Of a DNA stretch of 64,000 nucleotides, positions 42,426 to 64,000 are shown piece after piece; positions within the stretch are counted from its first letter, which is position 1, and each line of letters begins with the position of its first letter. The translations under genes were made by a program, and so were the position numbers. The DNA is from Powellomyces hirtus (lineage: Eukaryota > Chytridiomycota > Chytridiomycetes > Spizellomycetales > Powellomycetaceae). Under the pieces are notes generated by a model, which worked only from the letters and a program-made list of their open reading frames with translations, was not told the origin of the DNA and made no database searches. The stretch is from NCBI GenBank assembly GCA_025526995.1, contig JAHLKG010000023.1:496001-560000 (forward strand), given 5' to 3'.

Positions 42426-43200
42426 GGCAGGTCATGATCCCATCTTGATGGGGGGACGCCTGGGGTATGGCGTTTGCATCTCTCTGTGAGAGCGCAATCG
42501 TACCATATGACGTTCAAGCGGGAGAAGGGGCCGTGGAAGCATCTTGTTAAGTGCTTCATTGGTGGGGCGAGACACAGAGCGCCTTCTCCTAAGTGTTAGC
42601 GTCTCCATACCTATGGGGGCCAGGGACGTCATGTGTGAGCAGGTCAAAGTGGGCTAAGGGCACCGGCTGGTCCGGCAGGTCATGATCCCGTCTTGATGAA
42701 TGAGGTCCAGCAGGTCGTGATCCATCATGATTTTGGGGGGACGCCTGGGGTATGGCGTTGGCGTTTCTCTCTGTGAGAGCGCAAACGTACCAGATGACGT
42801 TAAAAAGCAGGAGACTGGGCCGTGGAAGCATCTTGTTAAGTGCTTCATTGGTGGGGCGAGACACAGAGCGCCTTCTCCTAAGTGTTAGCGTCTCCATACC
42901 TATGGGGGCCAGGGACGTCATGTGTGAGCAGGTCAAAGTCGGCTAAGGGCACCGGCTGGTCCGGCAGGTCATGATCCCGTCTTGATGGATGAGGTCGAGC
43001 AGGTCGTGATCCATCATGATTTTGGGGGGACGCCTGGGGTATGGCGTTGGCGTTTCTCTCTGTGAGAGCGCAAACGTACCAGATGACGTTAAAAAGCGGG
43101 AGACTGGGCCGTGGAAGCATTGTGCTTCACCTCGAGACACGCAGCGCTTTCTTCCAAGCTTTTATGTCTCCATACCTACACCCTCCCCTAACAACGTGAT
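42426..43200. repeat. Tandem repeat, unit ~289 bp, three copies
   Basis: GGCAGGTCATGATCCC recurs at 42426, 42674 and 42963. Copy 1 lacks about 41 bp, copy 2 is full length, and copy 3 decays near its end. Copies 2 and 3 are almost identical. ORFs on the minus strand repeat with the unit and are not accepted as genes. Confidence 0.85.
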
Positions 43201-45077: not shown

Positions 45078-45576
45078 ACTCCCACAAGCGCCAAACAGAT
45101 CAATCCAATTGTGTAAGGGAGTCGTTGGTTAATGCTTGACTGGGAAAGATCCCTGAGTCCTGGATATTGGTAGAATGTGCAAACTGGCCCGGGAACCCGC
45201 TATCCACGGTGAAAGAGTTGCCATAGGTTAAGGGCGGAGCAGAGTTGGCGGGACCTGCAAACGCCGAGATTGGGGGGAGATGATCGACTTCATCGTCAGA
45301 ATCCTCGTCCTCTGGCAGGATTGGGCTAGGCTCCATTCTGAAATTGGCTTCAGAATTGGCCATGGACTGGCGCCGGCAAGTGTCTTCATCTTCGCCCTCA
45401 TCCGAGTCTGGCACCGCACCTTTCCAGAGCGCCAGATCCTGAGAGACAACCGTGCTTAGGAAAGTCGCCTGTTCCGAGGGTGGATACTTGAAGATAGCCG
45501 CTAAATAATCCTCCACAGTCGACCACAGAAGCTCGCTCTTCTGGTCTGGTGTTTTTCCCTTCTTCTCAAGCGCTTC

Positions 45577-45942
45577 TATTGGAAATATCAGCACTTCCAG
45601 TACTTTATCGGAATTGCAGAGGAATGACCGAATTTGATGCAGCCTCCAGTATACTCCGTAAAGGGGGGGTTACAGAGCTCTTCTGTGATGCAGTTGACGA
45701 TGTAGCATTGTCAGATGCACGGAGATGTAATGTATGTGAATGTATTTTATGTCTTAAAGTGTTATCGGTAATGTCTCGCTTCGAGCGTTCTAATCTACTT
45801 TTTCTCCATTCGGTGATCACACGTGATCCAATTCAGCTCTTAGCGTTACCGGTATGGCAGTCACGCGTTCTAGTCGGAGAATCCAAGTAAGGATCTAATG
45901 TAAGGACCAAACGTTGAGTACGCAAGTCTCAACATTCCAATA
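45577..45942 (-). repeat. 3' LTR of copia-1
   Basis: About 96% identical by eye to 50815-51181. It is bounded by the GCTTC duplication outside and a polypurine tract inside. Confidence 0.95.
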
Positions 45943-45953
45943 CACCCCCTGTC
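45943..45953 (-). promoter_or_regulatory. Polypurine tract of copia-1
   Basis: ACAGGGGGTG on the minus strand directly precedes the 3' LTR, as needed for plus-strand DNA priming. Confidence 0.75.
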
Positions 45954-45981
45954 CAAGCAATCAATCCGCGATGATGGGATT

Positions 45982-48900
45982 TTACTCATTCGGGAGCTCC
46001 GTCGTGGACGTTTTCGTCATTGGCGTGATGGTGTTGCCGTAGTGCTTGATGCACATGTTTTTGCGATGGTGTTTGAATGCCGGGGCCGGTAAGGGCTTTG
46101 TAAGTGAGTCGGCGACCATCTCAGCCGTAGGCAAGTACTCCAGATGAATCTCCTTGTCGACGTGATCACGGATGAGGTGATGTCGAATGTCGATGTGCTT
46201 GGTACGGGCGTGATGCACGGGATTCATTGCCAGCGAGATGCATGACTGGTTATCTTTGTAGATTGTTGTGGGTCGAGCATTTTCATCGAGATATTCGAGG
46301 ATTTGAAGTTCTTGCAGAAGTGAGCGAAGCCAGATTGTCTCTTGAGTGGTGAAGGAAAGTGCCATGTATTCAGCTTCGGTGGATGAGAGAGCAACGGTGG
46401 GTTGGCGCTTCGAAGCCCAAGTAACGGGGCCCGCATTTCCCATGTAGTAAAGGTAGCCAGTGATTGACCGTCGATCAATGATATTGTTTCCCCAATCGGC
46501 ATCGCTGTAGCCGCGAAGGGTAACGTTATTTCCGCCGATGCAGAGGCTGTAGTTTGATGTTCCTCGTAGGTAGCGAAGGACGCGCTTTGCAGCTTGCAGA
46601 TGTTGAGGCGAGGGGTTGCTTGCGAAGCGAGAAAGCATATTGACTGCGACAGCGATGTCAGGACGCGTGCATATCATCAGGTACATGAGAGAACCAACGA
46701 TTTCGCGATATTCTCCTTCTTGCGGGTTTGGTGAAGTCTTTGTATTTTCAACTTCGTAGGGTTCAAGCTTGGTCTGGTCCATCGGAGTATTGACGGGCTT
46801 GCAATCTTGCATACCAAAGCGCTCGAGGATGTCATTTACATATGACTCTTGATCGAGATAGATGACGTGTCTTGAGTAATCGCGTCGAACTCTCATTCCT
46901 AGGTAGTGGTTGACTTCGCCTAGGTCTGTCATGTTGAACTCGTTGTGCAGGGATGTCTTGATTGACGAGATTTCCGATTCGGTCTTTGCAAAGATGAGGA
47001 GATCGTCGACGTAGACGGAGATGTACTGCTATGAGTCACTTTCAGGTAGAGTTCTGATGTAGACGGCATTGTCATTTGCCAGACGCTTGAATCCCAAAGA
47101 AGTAAGTTCTTTGTGAAGTAGGGAGTACCATTCGCGCAGAGCTTGTTTCAGACCGTAAAGGGCCTTTCGAAGTCGAAGGATGGTCCCAGGTGGAAAGCCA
47201 GAGCCTTCAGGGGCATAGATTAGGATGGTCTCGGTAACAATCCCATTCAGGAATGCGGTTACTACATCCATTTGATGGCATTTCAAGCCTAGGCTGGCGG
47301 CAAGAGTGAGAAGGACGCGTTGGGTAGCTATCTTGGCAACCGGAGCGTAGGTTTCGTTGTAGTCGATACTGTAGCGTTGTTCGAAGCCTTTCACTACAAG
47401 CTGGGCCTTGTATCGTTGGGGTTGACCATTCAGGTCTCGCTTAATCTTGAATACCCATTTAGTGCGGATGGGCCGTTGATTGTGCGGTAAGGATTTGGGG
47501 TTAATGACTTCCCATGTCTCATTGGTATGAAGGGACTTCAATTCGGCATTTATGGCCTCGGTCCACTTTGGCGCGTCGTCTGATGAGAGCGCTTGTTTGT
47601 AGGTTTGGGGTTCTTTGGTACTTGCAGCCAAAAGAGCGATCGCCGTCTTCTCGTTGATGTAGTCAGCGAAGACCGTCAAATGATTGACATTTTCGAGCGG
47701 TTCCCATGTATTATCTTCGTCTTCGAATCCTAGCCATTTGCAGAGGAATTCGGGGCCTTCCGGGCTGTCACGTGAGTCGAGAATCTCTTCGACTTCGTAG
47801 AGTTCTTCAGGCGGGATGTAGTCTTTTGCTAGTTCGAGTGCTGAGGTTTCGTCGAACGTTACATTGCAAGAAATGACTATTTCTTGACGGTTGTCATCCC
47901 AACAGCGGTAAGCGCCGTCAAATTCATAACCGATGAGTTTGAGACGTGTGGCGCGCGGTGCCAACTTTGAGACTTGTTTTCTCTTGACGAGATGCACGAA
48001 GGCATCGGCCCAAATCACACGAAGGTGAGAAAGTGAGGGCTATTCGCCGTTGAGCCGTTCGTACGGCGAAATGTTGTTATTGGACTTGTGGGGTAGGCGA
48101 TTCCGTAAGTAGACTGATGTAGCCGCTAACTCGGTCCAGAGTTGTTTTGGGATGCCGTATGAGTGTTCCAAAGAACGTATGGTGTCGAACAGAGTGAGGT
48201 TGAACCTTTCTGCTACACTGTTGGACTGTGGGGAATCTGCAGCGGTGAGTTCGTGCAGAATGCCCTTTTTCGAAATGAATTCTTTCAGATGTGATTGACA
48301 AACTCCCCCCCTCGATCAGAATGACGTCGTCTGACCCTTTCGTTGGTCTGTTTTTCGATGAAATTGATGAATTCAACCAATTTTGCAGTAGATTTGCTCT
48401 TTGTCTTCAAGAAGAAGATCCATGTGAAGCGTGAATAGTCATCGATCACAACGAGGGCATATTTCTCATCGCCAACCGCGGGTATGTGCGGACCGTTTAG
48501 GTCAAAATGTAGGTGATTGAGTGGCGTCTTGGACCGTGTCATCGTACCGTTGAATGGTGAGCGCTTGTGCTTACCAAACTCGCAACTTTTGCAGACCTCG
48601 TTGGTCAATGGGAGCTTGAGTTGCTTCATGATGTGAGTGCCGGGATGGCCCAAACGGTGATGCCAGAGGGTTCCTTCGTTGACAGGAGAAGAGGGACCAG
48701 AACAAGCCCCAGAAGAAGCCGCTGAAGCAGCAGCGGAGGCAGTGCTAAATCTGCCTGCCCCCTCTGCAGGGGTGCGTGCCCCCCCCCCCTCCTTTCCGAG
48801 AGCACCGAGGGGACGGTGCTCTGGGGGGGGGGCATCCTCAGTGAGGATGGGGCCGAGGTTCCTGGATGGGGCCGACCAGCCCCGATTTGGGGCAGCCGGC

Positions 48901-50700
48901 CCTTTCGTCGTAGCTTGGGTCGGAGTAGAACGCATGACCGAGATACCGGTAGCGTCTGTCGACAGGTTGGACGCTTTTGTCCTTGAGCGAGTTTGAGTAG
49001 CGAAAGCCATCGGAGTTGGCGAGATGTGATACATTCCTCGAACGAGAGGTATGGTGATGTCATTCGTAGTGCCATTGCAGTCTTGAATGACAGCGCTCTC
49101 ATCTTCAAAAGTGACTCTCTTTCCATCTTTGGTGAGTGCGGAGACCGAGATGAGAGTTTTGGCGAGTTTCGGAACGTAGAGAACATCAGTGAGAGGTACA
49201 TCTCCATCTGGAAGCGTTCCCTTTTGCTTCGGCATCGAGAAAGGCGTTGTTTCCAAATCTGATGCGCGTTGAGTGCTCTTCGTAGGATTCGAGAATGGAA
49301 ATGTCATTCGTCATGTGCTGTGAGCAGCCCAAATCCAAGTAAGCCAATGTAGTGGCGTTGTGTGCTTCTGCAATGTTGGCATTAGCAGCGGGTTTTAAGG
49401 CTTCGACTGCCTTGGCTTTGAGGGGACAATTGAATGGGGTATGTTGATTCAAATTGCATAACCAACAGGGGAAGTTCTGTCTTTTCTTCGAGTCTGTGGT
49501 CTTCTTCGCGTCGGTCTTCTTGTGACTTGAGCCGTCTTTCTTTGAAGGTTGGGCTTCGAGCGCGATGTTTTCGCTCTTCTTGGCGAAACGGTTGCTTTGG
49601 TTACTCTTGTTACTTCCATTGTCTAAACGTTTGGCAGCAGCTTGTAGGCCTTCGAGATCTTCAAAGCTTTGTGTTCTGACGAGCTCTGCTTGATGTTCGT
49701 TCATGCCTCGAAGGTAGAACCATTTGTAGACTAGAAAAGGGATGTCCGATACGAGCTGACTGGTAATTTTTGTGAACGAGGTATTGTACTGTGAGATGGT
49801 GTGGCTTCCTTGTCGCAATCTTTCTAGTTGAGTGAGTAGGACTTCCTCGTGATCGGTCGGTTGATAACGCCGGAGGAATGGTTGCTTGAAAGTTTGCCAA
49901 TTTGTGATGGGGTCAGCATTTCCCTTTTCAGCCTCTTTGCAGTAATTTCAATACCATTGTTTTGCATCGCCAGAGAGTTTGGTGAAGATGAATGCAAGTT
50001 GTTCTTCTCCAGGTACTGATTTGAGACGAAAGACCACTTCAATCTGATCAACGAAGTCGACGAGTTTTGAGAGATTTCCCGTTCCGTCGAAAGTGAGGAC
50101 TGCATTGATCGCTGATTGAAAGAATGTGAATGATGTGCGCTGGGCTTCACGGTCATCGCTCTTTCTGCTGCTCGTAGTTGTTGTGCTCTCCGTTGGGGAA
50201 GGCGGACGAAAGTGAGGGGCAACTGGGGCTTCAACTCCGCCGTGAGTAATGTGTTGATGTAGAAAAGGGTACTCAATGGTCGCTTTTGGGCTTCTCATCG
50301 GTGAAACGGCCGTAGGATGACCACCGATATGAGGCTTTTCGTACTTTTCAGGATGTTGATGGGAAGTTGATGTAGCGAGAGGGTTTGAACTAGTCAATAA
50401 AGTCCTCTCCAACCTGTCCATCCGATGGTCGAGCTTTTCGTCGATTTCCATCTTGAACCTCTGCAGAATTTCCATGACAATGTCAGTCGGTACTTCGGAC
50501 GGTACTGTCGCCGGATCTGCATGAATTTCTCCATGATTCATCTCATCCACATCGGCATCTGCGTCATGGGAATCATGGTAGATCGAGGCATCGATATTAA
50601 CGTCTTCTTCAGCGTCAGGACCCCGTTGGGCTTCTCGTGTGGCTTGACGGGCTTGTTGGCGGGTCTGCACTCCTAGAATGGGAGATCTTGCAGTAGGCAT
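45982..50700 (-). pseudogene. copia-1 gag-pol, broken
   Basis: Read on the minus strand from the ATG at 50700. Gag ends in a CX2CX4HX4C knuckle (CWLCNLNQHTPFNC). A protease-like DLGCSQHM follows, then GAG-pre-integrase (LWHHRLGHPGTH), integrase (HFDLNGP, HSDRGGEF), a chromodomain (about 47800-47650), RT with an intact YVDD, and RNase H (YSDADWG, STEAEYMAL). Lesions are an in-frame TGA in gag (49948), a frameshift near 49225, a frameshift after the 7-G run near 48297, TAG at 48040-48042 and TAG at 47029-47031 just before YVDD. A GC-rich insert lies at 48680-48915. The element cannot make its own enzymes unless stops are read through. Confidence 0.9.
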
Positions 50701-50800
50701 CTTGACGGTGTGCTTGGTACTTTCTTGGCACTTGAATTTGACGGAAGACTTGTAGTTTACAGGTTTTACGAAGGGAGAATGATTCGAATTCGACCGGTCT

Positions 50801-50814
50801 CAGGGCTCATAACC
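50801..50814 (-). promoter_or_regulatory. Primer-binding site of copia-1 (half tRNA-iMet)
   Basis: GGTTATGAGCCCTG touches the LTR. Its complement, CAGGGCTCATAACC, matches the anticodon stem-loop of initiator tRNA-Met up to nucleotide 39, the end of the half-tRNA primer known from Drosophila copia. Confidence 0.85.
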
Positions 50815-51181
50815 TATTGGAAATATCGGCACTTCCAGTACTTTATCCGAATTGCAGAGGATTGACCGAATTCGATGCAGCCTCCAGTATACTTCGTAAA
50901 GGGGGGGTTACAGAGCTCTTCTGTGATGCAGTTGACAATGTAGCGTTGTCAGATGCACGGAGATGTAATGTATGTGAATGTATTTTATGTTTTAAAGTGT
51001 TATCGGTAATGTCTCGCTTTGAGCGTTCTAATCTACTTTTTCTCCAATCACGTGATCACACGTGATCCAATTCAGCTCTTAGCGTTACCGGTATGGCGGT
51101 CACGCATTCTAGTCGGAGAATCCAAGTAAGGATCTAATGTAAGGACCAAACGTTGAGTACGCAAGTCTCAACATTCCAATA
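50815..51181 (-). repeat. 5' LTR of copia-1
   Basis: Partner of 45577-45942. The primer-binding site follows directly at 50814. Confidence 0.95.
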
Positions 51182-52231: not shown

Positions 52232-52884
52232 TTCGGTGTGGTAGACAGAAGGTGTAGACTTAAGTGCTGTTGCTATGGCACCAATGTGGAGCTCTTGGCG
52301 CCTTCGTCCTCTTCATTGGCGCTTGAGGCGCCATCCACTAGCGCCCGTGACTGACTGGGGAGTGTTGGCGCCTGTGTCCATTTGGCGCTTGACCATGTTC
52401 GGCTCAGGGTCTCCTTCAATCTGGCAGCATTTTCCTCCCGATCTAGTTTTGGAACCATTGTCCGAAGCGCTTGGGCTGTTTTAATGCAATTTAGGTTCAC
52501 TACAAACTGTTGGAGAGGCCCATGCAAAATGGACCGCCTCATTATGGTTGTTTCACGACGCTCCAAACGCTTCCGTCCCGTAACAGCAATGGCGCATCCT
52601 GCCGCCGCACAGTGGTGCTGGAAATTCAGAATTGCCTTCACATCGGCAGGTGAGACCGAGCGCCTATGTGGTGTTTCCTCAACAATGGGCAGTCCATGAA
52701 AGACAACATCAGGAACGAGCCGGAGAAGGTTGACCTCGAGCTCAGCCTTAGTTTGAACTGCAATCCGAGCTAAGCGCCGGTCTTGGAGAAGGACAAACAT
52801 TCCTTTTTGCAGGACAAACGCTGACGCCTTCAGTTGGATGCCAAAGAGCACCTGTACGGTGGGGTCACCTGCAAGACAAGTTAT

Positions 52885-53387
52885 AGTTGCAAGTCGGTGC
52901 GCTGGAGGGTAATCGCTTAGACGGCCAAGCTTAAAGGTGCAAGTAGCAAAGAGCAAAAGGTAGTGTATTGCCGATAGTATAACAAGTCTCTCATAAATCT
53001 CTCTCAGAGCAAGGGGCGGAAGTAAAGAGCCCCGGGCTTAAGAGTAAACTGGGTGAAGACAGCAGCGGCTCTAGAACAATGGAAATGAAGGAGCCGTGCA
53101 AATGAAAGGAACGCAAGGGGCCTAATGTCACAATGCAAGGAGAACAATGGGAACCAAGTGGGGACCGTGACACCAAAGACGTGTGGTGGTAGAGGATTAA
53201 TCATGGAACCGTGTGCCACTTAAGACGTGTAGGTGGCACAGTTCGTAGGTAGCAGAGTGATGAAAATAGCCATGTACCGTCCAAAGAATCGTGGATGGCA
53301 CAGTACGATAGTGTCCAAAGTAGAAGAATAGAAGCAAAGGAATAAAGGCTTCTGAGTGACCGGCCGGAGCTCCTTGGTATCCCAATA
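52885..53387 (-). repeat. 3' LTR of copia-2
   Basis: 503 bp, matching 60089-60591 except at about three sites. In element sense it starts TATTGGGATACC. Confidence 0.95.
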
Positions 53388-53398
53388 CGCCCCCTCCA
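53388..53398 (-). promoter_or_regulatory. Polypurine tract of copia-2
   Basis: GGAGGGGGCG on the minus strand touches the 3' LTR. Confidence 0.75.
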
Positions 53399-53467
53399 AG
53401 GAGCAAAGGTAGGGAAAAGGTAATTGGAACTTCCGAAGGTCAAGACGAAATTTGTTGTCAGGATGGT

Positions 53468-53530
53468 TGAGACTTAGTGCACTGGGCTGACGCAGGGACG
53501 CAGGCATGGAACCGCAAGTTCAATTCCCGC
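53468..53530 (+). other. tRNA-like segment with A- and B-box matches
   Basis: TTAGTGCACTGGGC resembles a pol III A box, and AGTTCAATTCC matches the B-box pattern GWTCRANNC, about 45 bp apart. The stems do not pair well, so this is not a functional tRNA. Confidence 0.3.
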
Positions 53531-53808
53531 TAGCTGTAATTGAGGGGCCCAATGAATTTTTCGGAATTCTGAAGGTAGCAGGGGTGTCCGGGACTTGTCC
53601 TTTAATCCCACGTCCTGTTGCAATGCAAAACCAGATCCAGTTCCGGGTGTCAAGTGGGGTGCGGAACTAGTGGGAGATGCAGTTGAAATCGCATCTGGAT
53701 CCAGAGCTTGTAACAGGAGGAGACCACCTTCACTAAGTCTTTTGCCGAAATAAAAATGGAACTGTGTGACGGAAGCCGATAGAAGGTGATGGAAGAATGA
53801 TTCCCGGA

Positions 53809-53815
53809 TATAAAA
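53809..53815 (+). promoter_or_regulatory. TATA box of the antisense cargo gene
   Basis: TATAAAA lies 70-76 bp upstream of the ATG at 53885 and is on the strand opposite to the retrotransposon, so the gene may have its own promoter. Confidence 0.5.
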
Positions 53816-53884
53816 GGAGGAAGGGGCACTGCCGCCCCCTCCAAAAGAGTCCTGAGGAAATCGGAAGTCCATCCCAAGTCGAAA

Positions 53885-54760
53885 ATGGAAAATCGGAAAA
53901 TCGGCCAAGTCAAGTCCAAGCCCAACAGTTTCAAGAAACGAGGCGGGGTCAAGAAGCAGATGGAGACCCTCGGACGTGAAGAAACAAAACGGATCGAAAC
54001 GGGACGCACAAGTCGAGTTCTGATTAGGAAGAAGAATGCTGAATCGGAAACTCTGATCCTGGTGCTGGCTGCTAACGAAACGGTGATTGTCAAGGATGAA
54101 GAGACAGGAGAAACCGTGTTGGTAGCCAGTTCCGATGCCGGTACGATGGAAGTTGCTGCAGCTCAGCTGGCAGATGCTAAAGCAGCATCTGAAAGCTACA
54201 GACCGATGCCCAGAGGAAAGGGCAAGATCATGAAAGGCCTCATGGTTGGGATCGGGGCTAGAAGTGGAGACACACTCAATTTTGCGGCACAGGCTACATC
54301 AGAGTATAGTCTTAAGATCCAATACCGTGCTCCCGACAATAAAGCAGAGATCCGAAAGAGAGAAGGAAAGAGGGTAGCTCAGAGGGTGATGACATTGGGA
54401 AGAGTTCATCATCCGGAGCAGTGGAAAGGCTTGACGCAGACGCTGAACATCTACATGCCGACTTTCCCTTTGTTCCTGGCCAAGAACTTCGAGATTTCCG
54501 ATCATACCGATAGGGATATGCAACCCTGGACGATAGGATACTGTGTCGAAGATGAAGGAACGATTGGAGATTGGATATTTCGATACCCGGAGTATGCACT
54601 GAAGGTGCAACTTAGGCATAGGGTTCTCTGGTCTTTTTCGTCTAAGAACGTCCATGGAACGGAACCGGTGAACAGTAAAGGCGGTGATAGATTCATGGGG
54701 GTCATAGGGATGCCTGGGACGACTGGCAGGGCGATTGAGCGTTATGGAAGGCCCAGATAG
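53885..54760 (+). CDS. Candidate 2OG-Fe(II) dioxygenase (Tet/JBP-like), antisense cargo of copia-2
   Basis: An intact 291-aa frame starts at an ATG downstream of a TATA box and ends 18 bp from the pol stop on the opposite strand (54779). The first ~60 residues are Lys/Arg-rich, compatible with nuclear entry. The C-terminal half shows the double-stranded beta-helix dioxygenase pattern: ISDHTDRD (His207, Asp209), GDWIFRYPEYAL, LRHRVLWSFSSKNVHGT (His257), then Arg269 in GGDRFMGVIG. HxD plus a distal His binds iron, and Arg about 12 residues later binds 2-oxoglutarate. Spacing and the VHGT text resemble the Tet-like 2OG oxygenases that are numerous in some fungi. Substrate is unknown; 5-methylcytosine or another base or protein is possible. 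It is not part of gag-pol. I am confident it is a real gene and less sure of the enzyme class. Confidence 0.6.
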   Translation: MENRKIGQVKSKPNSFKKRGGVKKQMETLGREETKRIETGRTSRVLIRKKNAESETLILVLAANETVIVKDEETGETVLVASSDAGTMEVAAAQLADAKAASESYRPMPRGKGKIMKGLMVGIGARSGDTLNFAAQATSEYSLKIQYRAPDNKAEIRKREGKRVAQRVMTLGRVHHPEQWKGLTQTLNIYMPTFPLFLAKNFEISDHTDRDMQPWTIGYCVEDEGTIGDWIFRYPEYALKVQLRHRVLWSFSSKNVHGTEPVNSKGGDRFMGVIGMPGTTGRAIERYGRPR

Positions 54761-54778
54761 ATAGGTACTGCCATATAG

Positions 54779-57700
54779 TCATGCGATAGATAATAAAGAT
54801 AGTCCAAGTTGATCCCGAAAAGCCGTGAATCGTGGATTGCCAATGGCTTTAGTGAAGACGTCAGCCAAGTTGTCTGTGCCGGCAATTGGTTGTAGGATAA
54901 GTTCTTCCTGATGAATCCAGTCCCGAATGGCGTGGTAGCGTATGTCAATGTGTTTGGTGCGTCTGGAATTTGTATTCCGGTGAGCCAATAGACGTGCACT
55001 AGCACTGTCCATATGGACAATAGTTGGAGCCTTGGGAAGGTCTGGACGGATTTGGGCCATGAGACGTGAGAACCAGAGAGTTTCTTGCCCAGCAGTAGCA
55101 GCAGCTATGTACTCAGACTCAGTAGAAGAGAGAGCAATGCAGGTCTGCTTGGTAGATCGCCAATGCATGACGGCTCCTGATAAGAGAAAACAGTAGCCAG
55201 AAGTGGAATGGCGGGTATTGGGATCAGAAGCCCAATCAGCATCCGTATAGCAATGGAGAGTTGTAGTATCGGATGCCTTGTATGTCAGAGCAAGACGTGA
55301 AGTGCCCCGAAGATACTTGAGGATACGTTGAACCGCTGTCCAATGAGCTTTGCGTGGACAGGAGACGTGACGTGCTAGGAGGCCCACAGAAGCAGCAATG
55401 TCAGGGCGGGTACAGACAGAAGCATAGAGTAAAGTGCCGATAGCAGTCTGATAAAGTTTGACATCGATAGGAGGGCCAGCATCGTCAGTGTCATATAAAC
55501 GTAAGTTGGGATCCATGGGCAGGAGAGAAGGATTGCAATCCGCCATGTTAAATCGGGTGAGGGAGTCCTTGATGTAACGTTCTTGATCCAAAGAGATAGG
55601 ACCGTCAGGATGCCAAGTGACCCGGATTCCCAAGATGTATGAAAGCCTGCCCGCATCAGTCATCTTATATTTGGTGCAGAGACTGGCCTTGAGATCTGTG
55701 AGGAGGTTAGGCTGAGTGCGGGGGGCAGCCACAATGATATTGTCCACATATAAAACGAGGAAGACAGGATGTCCATCCACCAGCTTGTGGTAGAGGCAAG
55801 GTTCGCCGGTACAAGGCATAAAGCCAAGTTCAGTAGTAAGGAAACTATCGATGTCATCGTTCCAGAGTTTACCGGCTTGCTTGAGACCATAGAGACTTCG
55901 GTTGAGTAAGGCCACTTTGTGTGCAGAACGTAATGGGCCGGGTGGAAGTTCCATGTAGATGATAAAGTCGATAAGCCCATTGAGATAGGCAGTGACTACA
56001 TCCAGTTGATGAGCGTCTAGGCCCATCTGCGCACATAAGGCAAGAAAGAGGCGCAGAGCCGGCCAGCCCACAACAGGAGCATAAGTGTCTTGGTAGTCCA
56101 GGCCATGGCGTTGGGTAAAGCCCTTAGCTACAAGGCGAGCTTTGAATTTGTTGATAGTACCGTCCACATTGCGTTTGAGTGCAAAGACCCAGCGGGAATC
56201 CACAACGTTGGTGGGAGGGGCTGGACGGTCAACAACTGACCAGGTGTTGTTAATGGTCAGGGAGTCAAGTTCGGTTTGCATGGCGTTTTCCCAGGAGACA
56301 CGGTGGGGAGAAGCAAGAGCCTGCTTGAGAGTATTGGGTACATCGTAATTGCAAGGCACAGGAGTGGCTTCAGACGTAGCAGTAGATGTCTGGAAGGCAT
56401 GGGTGCGTCGGGTGCGTGATGAGTTGCCCAAGTCATTGTCCTCAAGGTATTGATTGAGAAGTTCGTGACAATGATCAAGCCGGTCTTCATCTTCCCAAGT
56501 GTTGTCAGAAGACGGATAACCTTTCCATTTGATGTAGAACTGGAGCTTGCCACGACGGTGGCGATGCTGCATGATATTCTCCACTTCATACTTGTCTTCA
56601 GATAAGGAAGATTCGTCAGAAGAGCTGCCGGCAGAGCCAGACGTGGGGAGGTCATTGCCAGTGGGATTGTCAATGGGAAGGTCGGCCACTGTGAAGTCTT
56701 GGAGTTGATCCAAGGAAAGAGTTGCGTCCCAGAATAGTTTAGATTCATCAAAGCGGACGTCACGAGTTTCCACAATGGAAGAGGTGGCCGGATGCCAAAT
56801 ACGGTAGGTAGGTGAGGAAAGGCCATAGCCAACAAGAACGCCAGTCCATGAACGTGGAAGGAGTTTGTTCTTCATAGGGACTGGGGTTACATAGGCGGTG
56901 CACCCAATGAGTTTGAGATGGTCCAGTTTAGGTTTGATGCCGGTCCAAGCTTCAAAAGGTGTCTTGGTATATCCACAGGCCGGTAGACGGTTACGTAGAT
57001 AGTTTGCGGTATTCCAAGCTTCAGCCCAAAAGTCCAGAGTGAAATGAGCTGCATGAAGCAGTGTACGTCCCATGTCCGCAAGGGTACGATGAGTACATTC
57101 AACCGGATTTTGGAAGGAAGAATAAGCAGCCGTGGTGTTCCAGATGATGCCTTGGGAAGCACTCCAACCCTGAATTACATCGTTGAGGAATTCAGAGCCT
57201 TGATCCGTGTGGGCTTGCTTGATAGGGTAGCCACGTTGGGTCTTGTAGAGGGCAGCATAATCCAATAGGCAGGTATGAACGGTATGGACCGACTTGTCCT
57301 TTAAGAAGTAGCTCTTGGAATAACGTGTGTCTTGGTCAAGAATAACCAGACAATAGATAGCTCCTGACAGAGAAGGAGTTGAAACCGGGCCAAAGAGATC
57401 AACGTGGATCAGGCCGGAATCGTCAGGATAGATGGTGGGGTTGACTTTGGGTTTGGCCACTCTATGGCCCTTGCCGACAGCACATTCAGCACAAAGAGGG
57501 ATGGCGTCTGAAGGCAGTAAAGTGAAGGCAAGAGGTAAAGCGGTGGCCAGCTCTTTAAAGCGGTCGTAGGAAGGATGACCAAGTCGAGCATGCCAAAGGA
57601 GATAGTCTCCCAAAGAGAGGATAGTGGGAGCCCCAGTAGCCAGTGCCAAGCTGGAGGCCGGTGCAGCCGTTCTAAGTTTGCAGGTGAAGGGCAATTGACC

Positions 57701-58626
57701 GGATGGTGTGCGGGGGATGGTAAGAGAAATCCCGTCTGGTAGGTCCATAGAACAATGGGTACGCTTGAAAGAAAGATTGATTCCCCGCTTTGACAAAGTA
57801 GGCTCAGAGAGTAGGTTGTGGCGAAAGGATGGAACGAAAAGTACGTCCCGGATGATCAGTCCATGTCCTTGATATGTCACTGAAATGTCTCCAAGGCCAA
57901 TAGCGTCAACAATAACACCGTTAGCCACTTCCACAGTGTGGGTGATGGGCTTGAGGTGTAGGAAGGCGGATTCCTGATAGCACATGTGGTCAGAGGCGCC
58001 GGAATCAACTACCCATTTGAGTTTGCCATTAGAGGCTGCTCTAAATGCTTTAGAAGAGTCGGAATCTTCCAAGGCAAAGGTGGGAGCGGTAGAGGCAACT
58101 AGGAGGCCTGAGGAAGTAGCCGTCATGGCGTTTGCGGAGGCCAGTTGCTTCTGGTGGTATTCCAATTTGCGCTTTTTGCGTTCGGCTTGCTTTTGGGAGT
58201 CTGTGGCTCTAGGGCAATCCCAATAGTTGTGTTTACCGGTAGCAGAGCAAAAGGGACAAGTCACAGTAGCCTTGACTGGAATAGCGTCCCGTTTAGAAGG
58301 TTTCTTAGGAGACTCAGCCGTGGCAGGAGCTGCGACAGAAGGGGTAGTCGGCACAGGTGCAGTATTGGCAGCTGGAGATGACTTCTGTTTCTTCTTGTTG
58401 CCAGACTGAAGGGCTGAAGAAGATGATGAGTCCGACTGATTGATCCGTTTGTTTAAAGCCTCCAATCTTAAGGCAGTGGCTTGAAGTTCTGCCAGACTAA
58501 GCTGACGATCGGTATTGCCAGCCGTGATTGACAGAAGGTAATGGGGATCAAGGGCCCTCTTGTAGAAGTTGCGTTCTTCTTCAGAGGTGAGAGGACAAGG
58601 GAGTTGGATCCGCAGATCCAGAAATG
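54779..58626 (-). pseudogene. copia-2 gag C-terminus and pol polyprotein (long open frame, RT motif altered)
   Basis: About 1280 codons stay open on the minus strand. In order: gag end (PLTSEEERNFYKRALDP), a knuckle CPFCSATGKHNYWDC with five residues instead of four before His, protease (VVDSGASDHM), GAG-pre-integrase (LLWHARLGHPSYDRF), integrase (HVDLFGP, HTDQGSEF, NPVECTHRTLADMGR), a chromodomain (56602-56437: YEVENIMQHRHRRGKLQFYIKW, then KGYPSSDNTWE), RT (HQLDVVTAYLNG) and RNase H (YTDADWASD, STESEYIAAA). The catalytic RT motif is YVDN (Asn codon 55739-55741), not YVDD. No ATG opens the frame at its 5' side because the inverted segment begins at 58627, so translation as a normal gag-pol is lost in this copy. 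Confidence 0.85.
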
Positions 58627-58915
58627 CCAAGGAGCTCCGGCCGGTCACTCAGAAGCCTTTATTCCTTTGCTTCTATTCTTCTACTTTGGACACTATCGTA
58701 CTGTGCCATCCACGATTCTTTGGACGGTACATGGCTATTTTCATCGCTCTGCTACCTACGAACTGTGCCACCTACACGTCTTAAGTGGCACACGGTTCCA
58801 TGATTAATCCTCTACCACCACGCGTCTTACCTCAAGAAAGCCCACTGCCCTATCGATCATCAGGACGTCATCCTTGAAAAGTTCTATAATCTTAAACAGG
58901 GGAAGCGCTCAGTGG
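58627..58915 (+). other. Inverted segment in copia-2 gag: LTR piece plus gag middle
   Basis: 58627-58828 is the first ~200 bp of the LTR in reverse orientation to the element, with about two differences by eye. Directly after it, 58829-58915 reads on the plus strand LKKAHCPIDHQDVILEKFYN, a gag-like sequence that fits the gap between the flanking minus-strand gag pieces. Confidence 0.75.
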
Positions 58916-60084
58916 ATCAGCTTAACAAGGCATTTCTGTAGTTGTTCCCAAGTCGCAATCAAAGGTTCAGTGCCAGCATTCATTGCCAATTGGTAGGATT
59001 GGTAACGTTGAGCCGCTTCGCCAGTCAGATAAGAGACAGCCAAAAGTACTTGGTTGGCGTCACTGAGCTGGGCAACTGAAAAGTAGTTGTTGAACGCACG
59101 GATATAGTCAAAGAGACTCTGATAGTCAGGTTGGCCACTGTTGTTGCGTCCAGAGAAGTTCTTCAGGTTCTTGGAAAGAGAAGCGATCATAGCTTTGATG
59201 GCATTGGGGTCATCCTGACTTGCAGTAGACAGGGGTGGACCCACATGGGCGAGATAGCTACTAGTCGTCCGGCTTGCGGGTCTAATAGTCTCTTCACGAA
59301 ACATAGGTGCGGGTACAGCTAAGGGTGTAGGACTGACAACGCTAAGGCGTTCGTGCGGACGGGCCGAATGCATGGGCTCAGCTAAGGGTGTAGTGCTGCC
59401 CTCATGCTGTATGGCACGGTTAGGTTCCTCCTCCGGCGCTTTAGTTGGAGAAGTGCCCCTCATCATAGGAGACATGACCGTTTCAATAAAGTCATGGGTC
59501 TCAATAAGGGCTGCCCAAAGACCGTCAGTGACTTCATGTTGGATACTGAAAGCCTTTTTGAGTGTGTTGATGTCCTTAGCCATGCGGATGGCCCAACGGG
59601 GAGGTTCCCCTTCAGAAGCAGTGTCCTGGGGATTGCTTGGTTCGGACGGGTCACCCTCAGAACTGGATGATGGATGATCAGGTTCTTCAGCATCACCAGT
59701 CACATGTGCGGCATGCCGTTCGTCAGGTAGGGGTACAGAGGGTTGAGGATCAGCAGCAGATGCCTTTCCCTTGTCAGTGAAAGTAGCTGCACGTTCTCCT
59801 CTGGGAGAGGAAGATCCTTCCAAAGGATCTGCCCGCTTGACGGTAGGTGGACGCACTGGATCAGGAAGTTGATATTGATTATCCCTGACCCAATCTTCTG
59901 GATTCCGATCTCCATCCTCTGAGATGTCCGCCATATTGAAGTAGTAGGTGGGTTGGTAGATGAGGTGGGTGACCGAAGGTAGAAGGGAGAGTGTAAAGGT
60001 GAAAGCTGCTAAAGGCAAAGCACTTGTAGGGTGCTCGAATGCGTACTGAGCGAAAGTAGCTAGGTCGTCAGGAGCAGGGCTCAT
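58909..60084 (-). pseudogene. copia-2 gag N-terminal part
   Basis: The open frame can start at the ATG inside the primer-binding site (60084) or at MADISEDGDRNPEDW (59934). It holds a disordered, acidic head with SSSSEGD, then the gag core (AMIASLSKNLKNFSGRNNSGQPDYQ, YSLFDYIRAFNNYFSV-type text, VLLAVSYLTGEAAQRYQSY, TWEQLQKCLVKLI). The frame stops at 58909, where the inverted segment begins. It encodes the capsid part of the virus-like particle in the intact element. Confidence 0.75.
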
Positions 60085-60088
60085 AACC
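60075..60088 (-). promoter_or_regulatory. Primer-binding site of copia-2 (half tRNA-iMet)
   Basis: Same GGTTATGAGCCCTG as copia-1, touching the 5' LTR. It contains an ATG (60082-60084) that is in frame with gag. Confidence 0.85.
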
Positions 60089-60591
60089 AGTTGCAAGTCG
60101 GTGCGCTGGAGGGTAATCGCTTAGACGGCCAAGCTTAAAGGTGCAAGTAGCAAAGAGCAAAAGGTAGTGTATTGCCGATAGTATAACAAGTCTCTCATAA
60201 ATCTCTCTCAGAGCAAGGGGCGGAAGTAAAGAGCCCCGGGCTTAAGAGTAAAATGGGTGAAGACAGCAGCGGCTCTAGAACAATGGAAATGAAGGAGCCA
60301 TGCAAATGAAAGGAACGCAAGGGGCCTAATGTCACAATGCAAGGAGAACAATGGGAACCAAGTGGGGACCGTGCCACCAAAGACGTGTGGTGGTAGAGGA
60401 TTAATCATGGAACCGTGTGCCACTTAAGACGTGTAGGTGGCACAGTTCGTAGGTAGCAGAGTGATGAAAATAGCCATGTACCGTCCAAAGAATCGTGGAT
60501 GGCACAGTACGATAGTGTCCAAAGTAGAAGAATAGAAGCAAAGGAATAAAGGCTTCTGAGTGACCGGCCGGAGCTCCTTGGTATCCCAATA
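60089..60591 (-). repeat. 5' LTR of copia-2
   Basis: Partner of 52885-53387. The primer-binding site adjoins at 60088. Confidence 0.95.
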
Positions 60592-63045
60592 GTTATCGCC
60601 TCGGACGCATGAATCAGCTCCAACGGGGCTTCAGGCTCCACTGGCGCTTGCAGAATGCCTCCCGAGACAATATGGCGCATAGTGGCGAGAAGAGAAAAAC
60701 CGCTCGCGATGTCCAATGATGGCGCCTGTCTGTTGCTATGTACGGACTGACTGCGTATCGCATGGTTGAACCTCTCAGATGTTTCGGTATGGTAGTGGCG
60801 AGGAAGTCCAAAATGACGAACGTCCTGAACTAGATGACGAAAGATGTGATATTTTGTCTTTTTGAAAAGTCGAATGGAGAAGCTGGCGACTGCAGCAAAG
60901 AAAGCGTCTGTTGCAGCTTCCAATTGATCACAGTATGCATCAAGGTTCGAGATTCGGTTTTCATAAACCAACACGGAAAGCACGGCCAGTTTTTCCCACA
61001 TGGCCATCACATCATCAGCAATGAGCCCATGAAAAATGAAGACCCCGGCTTGAATGGAAGCTTTGAAGTCCCTTCCAATGAGAGATCCGACATAGGTTAC
61101 AAATGTGGACCCCCGCATTGGTCCTTGATCTGTGCCGTTAGCATCAAACGAGTCAATCCTGGCGATGACTGTCGCCTTGTTTGTCGCTCAGTTGGCGCCT
61201 GTCACAAGGCCATATTTGATCGTTTGATTGCTGACATATTTGACAAACCCAAGCAGCACAGTGTGAAGGACTTCGACCGGGGTATCCAAATGCCCATCAA
61301 ACCCCGGCAATTGAAGGAGGGGATTGCGTCTCTGCAGTAAGGAAGCGAGACCCTCTCTGATGAAATTGGCTGGGAAATCTCTACTTTGGGCGCCCATCTG
61401 GAATGTTTATGAAAAGACATGATGTTAAGCGCCAACCGCCAGTTGCAAGCGCCAATATGAATGGAGGGGACTCACCTTGTCAATGACCTTTTGAGCAAGG
61501 ACGCATTTGACGCCCGTTGCAGTCTGAAGCTCCCGGATTTTTGTTTTGGTGCGTCTCTCAAATAACCGCTGCAGTTGTTGAGCAATGATGGCCGCCGTTG
61601 TTTGCCAGTTCCGTTGTGTTGTGGGCATTGAGATGAGCTCAATAAGGCCAGCGGCGTCTGTCAGCTTGCGGCTCACTTGACAATGACGACAACATTTCAA
61701 GGACATTAACCCACTGTGGCAGCAAAACTTGCTCGACTGGGGGTTGTCGCCCAGCAGACATAGCAGTCCTCCAATCACAAGCAATGGCTCATGGGAGACG
61801 CCATGAACACATGAGATGCTCTCGGTGAGCTGCTTCAATTGGGCGACAATGGCGCTTGTCATTTCCATCCCATCAAGTCCGTTGCTTGTGCAAACAAAAT
61901 GCTGATGGTAATCTGAGCTTTGTTGGTCAAATGGAAGACCGGCCAACGTGAATATCCAAGTGTCATGATTGTTCCATTGTTTTGATATGTTGCCAGAAGA
62001 ACCATCACAGAACATCACGAGGGGAACAACGAGAATCCGACGACCATTGGCAGTTTGGCGTCAATGATTCACGGACGCTTGGATGTTCAAGATGGCTCCA
62101 TCCGCTTCCTGTTCGACAACCATTGTTATTGAGGCGCTTGGTAACAGATCTTCCATGGGCCTTGTAATGGAGGATAATGGATGGCGTGCAAGGGCAAACA
62201 ATTGTCCAACCGGAGTCTCTGGAAGAGCGGGCAGTTCCGTCAATATTGTCCCTGAAAAGGACAGTTTCCCTTTGACTTTGAAGAATTTCATGATTCTGAT
62301 AAGTGTTCCATCACCAGTCATCGCCGTTTCCCCGGTACAGAAATCAAGACCATTAACCCTGACCATAGGCGCTTGCAGAATGGGTTCCTCATGCCACTTC
62401 ACACCATGCCACAGTTCTGAAGGCCGTGTAGTCTCTTCAGGATATGTTTCCAACAGCCCCACAACCACAGGATTTGATATCTCCCGCCGAATAGTGTCCA
62501 AAAGGGAATTTTGAAAGAAAGGGCGCCCAGAGACCGAGTTTTCTTCATATGTGTGGCATCGTGCTACATTGCGGGCGGCATGCATCTCCTTTTGAATAGA
62601 CTTGAGGGATGGAAGACGGAGCCCCAAAGTACGCGCCCACCACCAAATCCATTTCCGCACTCGAACTGACAGGCGCTGGTGTGTCCCACTGAACAAGAGA
62701 GCTGAGAAGAAATGCTCCTTCGTTGAAAATGGCCAATATTCGGACCGCATGGACCTCATGAAGACATCGGGTGATGCAGTGACTGACCGATCAGGCGACT
62801 CTGGAGACGCCAAATCTGGTGCTTGTTCGGAATTGTCGCCATCAAAACTTTCAAGGGAGACAAGGTCATCAAAGTCGCATGTAGTAATGGCATGGCTGGA
62901 CAGGTCAGAGTTGGGACTAATGTCATCCAAGTTGTCATCTTCAGGCTCTGGGATGCCAGGAACATGCCCCTCAATGTCATCCTGTCCGCTTTCGAACTCC
63001 AGATGTGCAATGCGCCGTTGGTGTCTTCGGGTTGCAAGATGTCAC

Positions 63046-63589
63046 TGCCGACAACTTTCTCTCAGCATTCTGGACGAGCCGAGCCGAGAGTTACAAAGTC
63101 GGCATTCTCAGAACTTGACCCCATCCGGCCCTTTCCGGCAACAAAAGAAGGAGCTCAGTCCTGTAGTGTGTCGATCCATCAGATGAGACTCCGAATTGAG
63201 TTGGAATTGAGATGGAGACCCTTCATTTGCGGACCTCATGATTTTCCAGCTCAAGCGCTTGTCAAAATCCGTTGTTGGCGCCTCATTGGCTTCATGGTTC
63301 GAATCAGCGACTCACTCAAGCGCTTCTGATATTCGAAGATTGGCGCCTGTGTGGATTCGAATCTGCCATTGCGGTTTGAACCAGTGGTTCGAAAGATGGA
63401 ATTTTGTCACAACTTTCATGTCAACCTCAACTCCCAAGTGATGAACTCCCGTAGTCACCTCTCAGGCAAAACTCTCACGTCAATTCTGGCACATCTTCCA
63501 CGGCATTTCAACCCCTCTAACAACCCCCCCTCCCCTCAAATGCTGGTGAGTGTTCTGGCCTTGTTCGCTTTGTCGCTGGCGCTCCTGTG
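63046..63589. other. Right flank of the Plavaka element
   Basis: Contains GCGCTT and GGCGCC motifs (63250-63350) and no gene. The transposase start and the element end should lie here or just beyond. Confidence 0.4.
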
Positions 63590-63593
63590 GTGG

Positions 63594-63955
63594 GACCATG
63601 AAAATGAAAGGCCCGACGGGTCCGACAATCGACAACCTTGGCACCAGCTCAGGAACGTGGCGCCGTGAGAATGGAAGGTCTTGCGGGCCCAACAACCTCG
63701 GCATCCGTTCTGTTCTGCTCAGGTTTTTGTTGGAGTTGTTTTTGGATTGCGGCGCCATGAGAATGAAAGGCCTTGCGGGCCCAACAACCTTGGCGCCTCT
63801 TCCGTTCCGCTTGGGCTTTTCGTTGGATTTGTTTTCGGATTGCGGCGCCATGAGAATGAAAGGCCTTGCGGGCCCAACAACCTTGGCGCCTGCTCAGGAA
63901 CATGGCACCGTGAGAATGAAAGACCTTGTGGGCCCAACAACCGTGGCGCCCTTCC
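63594..63955. repeat. GGCGCC-bounded ~47-bp repeat cassettes, five copies
   Basis: The unit GGCGCCATGAGAATGAAAGG, then CCTTGCGGGCCCAACAACC, then TTGGCGCC occurs near 63596, 63659, 63752, 63844 and 63902. Copies at 63752 and 63844 are almost identical, and spacers vary from about 10 to 45 bp. The bordering GGCGCC motifs match those of the Plavaka element. Confidence 0.75.
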
Positions 63956-64000
63956 TAACCCCTCTTATGAAAGATGAAAAATGGTGCCCCTACTTTGATC

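Follow-up and report, generated by a model that had tools for sequence, protein, structure and literature searches.

Our results suggest that, in the chytrid Powellomyces hirtus (Spizellomycetales), a family of Copia LTR retrotransposons has a selected antisense gene for a predicted TET/JBP-like protein. By oxidising methylated bases on the DNA of the element that encodes it, this protein would likely counteract silencing. We hold this reading tentatively, at a probability of roughly 0.45. The copy that led to it lies in a window of 64,000 nucleotides, contig C23 positions 496001-560000 (the whole stretch of DNA that was analysed). The protein is called TET/JBP-like from its metal-site pattern and its context, as a predicted rather than a proven member of that family. 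The features of the element are as follows, in window coordinates.

52885-60591, minus strand: Copia LTR retrotransposon, with target-site duplication GTTAT
52880..52884, no strand: left target-site duplication, GTTAT (sequence)
60592..60596, no strand: right target-site duplication, GTTAT (sequence)
52885..53387, minus strand: 3' LTR, 503 bp (LTR comparison; the element reads on the minus strand)
60089..60591, minus strand: 5' LTR, 503 bp (LTR comparison)
53388..53398, minus strand: purine-rich (G-rich) tract adjoining the 3' LTR, a likely polypurine tract by its sequence
60077..60088, minus strand: primer-binding-site-like GGTTATGAGCCC after the 5' LTR (sequence)
58909..60096, minus strand: gag-like ORF
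54779..58648, minus strand: Copia pol with GAG-pre-integrase, integrase, chromodomain and RVT_2 (ORF and Pfam)
58624..58828, plus strand: 205-bp LTR piece, inverted, where gag meets pol in the window copy
58826-58938: inverted 113-bp neighbour of that LTR piece in the window copy
53809-53815, plus strand: TATAAAA box, a putative promoter element that precedes the antisense ATG by about 70 bp
53885..54760, plus strand: antisense gene of 291 codons for a predicted TET/JBP-like Fe(II)/2-oxoglutarate dioxygenase (ORF, copies, selection, residues H207, D209, H257 and R269)

The element has the marks of the Ty1/Copia group, with an integrase upstream of RVT_2, paired LTRs and a 5-bp target-site duplication. 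The Pfam domains of pol follow the Copia order (rve 413-511; RVT_2 800-1045, E = 9.5e-55), and a chromodomain (E = 3.5e-17) lies between integrase and reverse transcriptase. The primer-binding-site-like GGTTATGAGCCC resembles the anticodon region of initiator tRNA-Met. The gag-like ORF gave no Pfam match, and its listed start falls in the LTR. An earlier reading of the duplication as ATAGT was replaced by GTTAT given the copy on contig C12, which is flanked by TTCAA on both sides, and the LTR edges were moved out by 3 bp per side from the duplications of these two copies; in the C1 copy only 4 of the 5 duplication bases agree. The LTR pair of the window copy has three differences in the 497 bp compared, indicating a young insertion. 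The inversion at its gag-pol junction, which the two copies set against it (C12 and C1) lack, perhaps arose by a template switch during reverse transcription or as an assembly fault.

A second Copia element, at window positions 45576-51181, has LTRs that align in two pieces, 96% and 98% alike. It too has a chromodomain in the interval between integrase and reverse transcriptase (47029-48015, Pfam E = 9.2e-13), and only about 40 bp separate the end of its pol from the LTR, leaving no room for an antisense ORF. Elsewhere in the window, positions 42516-43093 hold two 289-bp tandem copies that are 98% alike. Chromodomains in fungal LTR elements are described in one survey for Gypsy chromoviruses (PMC3248453).

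The preliminary description of this DNA had proposed an intact 291-codon gene with its own TATA box, opposite to gag-pol, between pol and the 3' LTR, and the coordinates bear this out. The ORF runs from an ATG to a TAG on the opposite strand, and 18 bp separate its stop from that of pol (54779-54781, minus strand). The TATAAAA box is exact in seven of the eight copies that cover the site, the window copy among them, and one base off in the C26 copy. Shuffling the dinucleotides of 53388-54778 did not yield a 291-aa ATG ORF on either strand in any of 1000 trials (maximum 286 aa). The protein collection returned no record for the 291-aa protein, its own entry included, so the gene is probably unannotated.

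A protein-level search of the P. hirtus genome, 29.3 Mb in 60 contigs, with the antisense ORF gave 19 matches. Three are full-length uninterrupted copies (C23, C12 and C1, at 100, 97 and 95%), and the remainder are broken or partial copies and distant relatives. At all seven places where the 3' end of pol reaches the junction, the window copy included, the sequence runs on into the end of the ORF (there are 12 pol-end matches in all, and the other five begin inside pol). The gene is thus a feature of the Copia family and not an accident of one copy. All three open-ORF copies are damaged in or near gag-pol; about 76 bp of pol are missing from the C12 copy, and the C1 pol has stops and frame shifts. 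The C6 and C8 copies have a common stop at codon 180, a non-CpG change, so an element whose ORF was already broken may have gone on spreading, perhaps with help in trans. Copies lacking the ORF, or carrying it broken with neutral substitution patterns, had been named in advance as evidence that would count against the proposal. Broken copies do exist, but the private changes in them look like decay after insertion.

Comparison of the copies points to selection on the protein. We aligned ten other copies in the register of the window copy and counted changes in the resulting 11 rows, setting CpG-type transitions aside; the rows come from 44 DNA matches, mostly LTR pieces, of which C28, C8:377 kb, C2:1011 kb, C12:310 kb and C8:445 kb were left out as diverged, short or UTR-only. 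Changes shared by at least two rows had an N:S of 11:16 (27 sites on few independent branches) versus 124:38 for changes private to one row (Fisher p = 0.00036), and with CpG changes counted in, the values were 37:39 versus 151:47 (p = 2e-5). The private N:S of 3.3 slightly exceeds the 2.5 to 3.0 expected under neutrality, and we take the shared changes to have arisen mostly while the elements were still spreading and the private ones mostly after insertion. No such difference was seen in two forward and two reverse off-frames of the ORF (p = 0.33, 1, 0.64 and 0.45), in the UTRs (p = 0.62, 0.68 and 0.18) or in the LTRs (p = 0.73, 1 and 1); the reverse frame that uses the same wobble base as the ORF gave p = 0.038. 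The 3' end of pol, as a positive control, gave 3:19 versus 103:54 (p = 3.9e-6). One pol off-frame differed in the opposite sense (p = 0.0047; 22:0, an N excess), because the true third position is there read as the first, and the other gave p = 0.8. These comparisons suggest that the antisense protein has been under purifying constraint in its own frame, weaker than that on pol. Protein-level constraint across copies, proposed earlier as a check on the gene, is what emerges, in a comparison of shared with private N:S rather than a fitted dN/dS.

The antisense protein has relatives in the same genome. It matches P0001, a 607-aa hypothetical protein of P. hirtus, over residues 72-289 (BLASTP E = 1e-18), with an hhalign probability of 97.8 over 194 columns. 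In a separate shuffling test none of 500 shuffles scored as high, and its identity to P0001-type proteins is 23-35%. A third TET-like family, L016 (C1:1325013-1328264), has a full match at one place only and is related to both the antisense ORF and P0001 (0 of 500 shuffles each). Its reading frame is split over several ORFs, so it apparently contains introns, and it may belong to the host or be a domesticated copy. A weak relative of L016 at C17:603899-604063 (39% over 51 residues, with one stop) is perhaps the relic of another TET-like copy.

Alignment of these proteins preserves the predicted metal site. In all seven aligned rows, which are not independent (three Copia copies, three P0001-type proteins and L016), H207, T208, W215, F232, P235, W249, H257 and T259 are the same. 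Six rows have D209, the C12 copy having N there, and six have R269, which is M in L016. The HxD at 207/209, distal His 257 and Arg 269 singled out in the preliminary description are all at the positions given there; the four are kept in the three P0001-type rows and the first three in L016, so that the full HxD...H triad with a following Arg is found in the window copy and the three P0001-type rows. This pattern is common to other 2-oxoglutarate dioxygenases and thus does not single out TET/JBP. The spacing of 48 from D to H equals that of NgTET1, and the P0001-type proteins have a long insertion there. The C12 copy, one of the three open copies, carries D209N, which should abolish iron binding, and broken copies show further losses at the site, such as HVN in C6 and H257 replaced by Y in C18. 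We considered D209N as general proof of lost function and dropped this idea, since the D209 codon lies in a CpG (ACC|GAT) and D209N therefore fits methyl-CpG decay of the C12 copy.

Pfam gave no family for the window ORF at E<=1 and none for L014, L013 or L016 at E<=10, AlkB/2OG-FeII_Oxy included in both cases; for the antisense ORF family, NCBIfam gave no match and PHROG no informative one. The PDB returned nothing for the ORF or for profile A2, three scans of viral contigs, one of them with a putative mushroom TET-like consensus, found no relative, and a further search of the protein collection found none among the best ~8000 candidates. AlphaFold models were unusable, both for the full length with a 7-row alignment (pLDDT 30.1) and for residues 40-291 with 13 rows (pLDDT 38.0). 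With the latter model, none of 349 Foldseek matches reached E<=0.001, and the best (RNA polymerase, talin) had E above 0.5. The mushroom consensus did not align with the ORF family profile (probability 0.2) and found no TET in the PDB; its Pfam scores for 2OG-FeII_Oxy_3 (E = 0.017) and Tet_JBP (E = 0.069) are both below the cut-offs and serve as a lead only.

Several of these tests could miss a genuine member. Comparison with NgTET1 gave an hhalign probability of 0.3 over 11 columns, with 450 of 500 shuffles scoring as high, but the accepted pair TET2-NgTET1 fails as well (for two TET2 pieces, 315 and 28 of 500 shuffles equalled or exceeded the real score), so this test has little power. Pfam PF12851, PF20515 and PF18758 had no match in the genome and were silent in control genomes too, so that their silence is no proof of absence. 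Transposon TETs of the PE type reach HHpred E = 1.4 at best (PMC12730594), and profile silence can thus be expected even for real members. The proposal of a Tet/JBP dioxygenase survives in part: the gene is element-borne, antisense, family-wide and constrained, and the residues are kept, but neither Pfam nor NCBIfam recognises the protein, and with models of such low confidence the double-stranded beta-helix stays a prediction.

The strongest competing explanation, which we regard as rather unlikely, is that the ORF is a selected Copia accessory gene of another fold, for example a DNA- or RNA-binding protein, in which the H-x-D, H and R are a look-alike. The lack of profile or fold support for a dioxygenase is in its favour, as are plant LTR elements that carry antisense ORFs of unknown function in the interval between pol and the 3' LTR (PMC7264820). 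However, the four residues were picked from one sequence and proved to be kept in a family alike at only about one third of positions in this region (31/92, L014), and the NgTET1-like D-to-H spacing also argues for a dioxygenase, although the P0001-type proteins have their insertion at that point.

The older copies provide a hint of the substrate. With the window copy as reference and each window site counted once per covering copy, we summed decay over seven older copies (C26, C6, C9, C12b, C32, C8 and C18), leaving out two younger copies (C12 and C1) and a short one (C10). The product of a C-to-T change (T or A) was found at 189 of 614 CpG cytosines, versus 38 of 877 at CpA, 103 of 953 at CpC and 70 of 916 at CpT; 16 sites show the opposite, a T in the window copy at a CpG of the other copy. 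Judged from the sequences, this decay is probably the trace of 5-methylcytosine deamination, as expected if the host methylates these copies. The genome contains 14 rows matching DNA_methylase (PF00145), which are predicted methyltransferases, and seven predicted MT-A70 matches.

The MT-A70 matches would also suit a different substrate. A 2-oxoglutarate dioxygenase could have m6A in RNA or 6mA in DNA as its substrate instead of 5mC, as in the orchid Gypsy AlkB case, where an LTR element captured a functional AlkB-type m6A RNA demethylase (PMC9289625), and CcTET oxidises 6mA as well (PMC12730594). We consider this clearly unlikely, given that no AlkB profile matches, that 6mA is low in Chytridiomycota, under 0.3% (PMC11258239), and that decay at CpG points to 5mC.

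It is highly improbable that the ORF is a passive captured fragment with no role. The close copies other than the three open ones are broken or partial, D209 is gone from one of the open copies, and the same stop codon is found in C6 and C8, but the shared changes are mostly synonymous in the real frame, and both the ORF end (seven of seven junctions) and the TATA box (seven of eight copies) are kept. Least probable of all is that the antisense transcript rather than a protein matters, by regulating gag-pol RNA; antisense transcripts of LTR elements can be regulatory (PMC7264820), but the constraint on the ORF is at the protein level.

The Copia element with its TET-like gene is itself inserted in a transposase-like gene that adjoins a second gene of this kind, in the following setting.

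52273..52879, minus strand: C-terminal part of a transposase-like ORF cut by the Copia insertion (frame open across the join)
60597..63041, minus strand: other pieces of the transposase-like gene, with stops between the pieces (sequence)
63550..64000, plus strand: start of a second TET-like ORF of 623 codons (C23:559550-561421, past the window end)

When the flanks are joined with one GTTAT, a minus-strand transposase-like frame is open for 400 codons. The preliminary description placed the Copia element inside a Plavaka transposon. The insertion into a transposase-like gene is upheld by the frame across the join, but the name Plavaka is not: its Pfam domain, PF18759, has two matches in the genome, both at C6:372 kb and none in the window region. 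The copy at C6:372 kb was examined as a relative of the window pieces and rejected, as there is no resemblance. The window transposase may follow the pattern of Plavaka or KDZ proteins, but its pieces matched no transposase family, and the KDZ profile (PF18758) matched nothing in this genome or in the control genomes.

P0001 is 94% identical to the second TET-like ORF over the 476-aa query and is its only relative among the best ~8000 candidates. Genes of this type occur full-length at three places, the other two being 93-94% identical to the window-side copy, and all three adjoin the same transposase-like sequence within the flanks, which cover ~540 bp of that ORF. A DNA transposon is therefore their probable carrier, an arrangement that fits the published TET-positive DNA transposons (PMC12730594). 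The termini of this carrier did not emerge: two copies stop at the same point, L052:5233, and one reaches 5880, with no convincing inverted repeat. Window positions 63632-63951 hold ~92-bp tandem repeats whose frame gives repeated GPTTLAP peptides at the N-terminus of the TET-like protein (607/623 aa). Since the two TET-like proteins are only 23-35% identical, the present nesting does not itself represent the capture, and we infer that the TET-like gene was exchanged long before between DNA transposon and retrotransposon.

Transposons may make their own counter-silencing enzymes, and the TET/JBP genes found on mobile DNA are candidates for this. A paper of 2014 reportedly first linked fungal TET/JBP genes to KDZ transposons. 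Their linkage to DNA transposons, mentioned in the preliminary description, agrees with a survey that places them on 11 lineages of such elements in the Dikarya groups Pucciniomycotina, Agaricomycotina and Pezizomycotina (Kojima 2025, PMC12730594). According to the same survey, they occur on "no retrotransposon", for which high copy number was suggested as a possible reason, and the words chytrid and Powellomyces are absent from it (PMC12730594). A 2026 review likewise describes transposon-encoded TET/JBP in Basidiomycota and Pezizomycetes (PMC13297926). Among the open-access titles listed for the subject (20 of 399 papers in one listing), none concerned a TET-carrying retrotransposon.

Related systems are known elsewhere. 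As in the TET-positive fungal DNA transposons, a TET/JBP-like gene lies beside the transposition genes of a mobile element, escape from methylation has been proposed, and the protein can be so diverged that only HHpred or structure reveals the link; unlike them, the carrier here is an LTR retrotransposon of a chytrid, with the gene antisense to gag-pol (PMC12730594). The orchid Gypsy AlkB domain (2-ODD) is likewise a 2-oxoglutarate dioxygenase removing a methyl mark from within an LTR element, a role only predicted here, but it belongs to the AlkB family, acts on RNA m6A and resides in plant Gypsy elements, and no AlkB profile matched our protein (PMC9289625). Retrotransposons also encode DNA methyltransferases, in Gypsy elements of K. 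nitens, where purifying selection was reported, and in other retrotransposons of Symbiodinium. These too carry a DNA-modification enzyme, although a methylating one, whereas that of P. hirtus is predicted to remove modification; the Symbiodinium Copia elements lack the methyltransferase (PMC5890265). The antisense ORFs of plant elements (Grande gene23, RIRE2 and Retand) have the same place and orientation, with a promoter of their own in Grande, but the named examples are plant elements and their ORFs are of unknown function (PMC7264820).

Taken together, we propose that a chromodomain Copia element with an own-promoter antisense TET gene, kin to one found beside a DNA-transposon transposase, reactivates its copies in methylated chromatin, a fuller version of the TET/JBP-like reading that we put forward just as tentatively. 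Production of the enzyme from the antisense promoter would not depend on LTR transcription and would continue even with the LTR silenced. The protein would bind iron and 2-oxoglutarate and oxidise 5-methylcytosine, the presumed substrate, on element DNA, so that LTR transcription is restored. Chromodomain integrases of other elements direct insertion into silent chromatin, and by analogy the pol chromodomain may direct insertion to where the enzyme would help most.

Should the activity prove real, no earlier TET-carrying retrotransposon is known to us. A selected TET-like gene on a retrotransposon would break the no-retrotransposon rule of the 2025 survey and extend the subject to chytrids. 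The protein is small (291 aa) and encoded by an uninterrupted ORF, making it directly testable for oxidation of 5mC, 6mA or T, and the three protein families of this one genome offer a natural comparison of a retrotransposon, a likely DNA transposon and a possible host gene.
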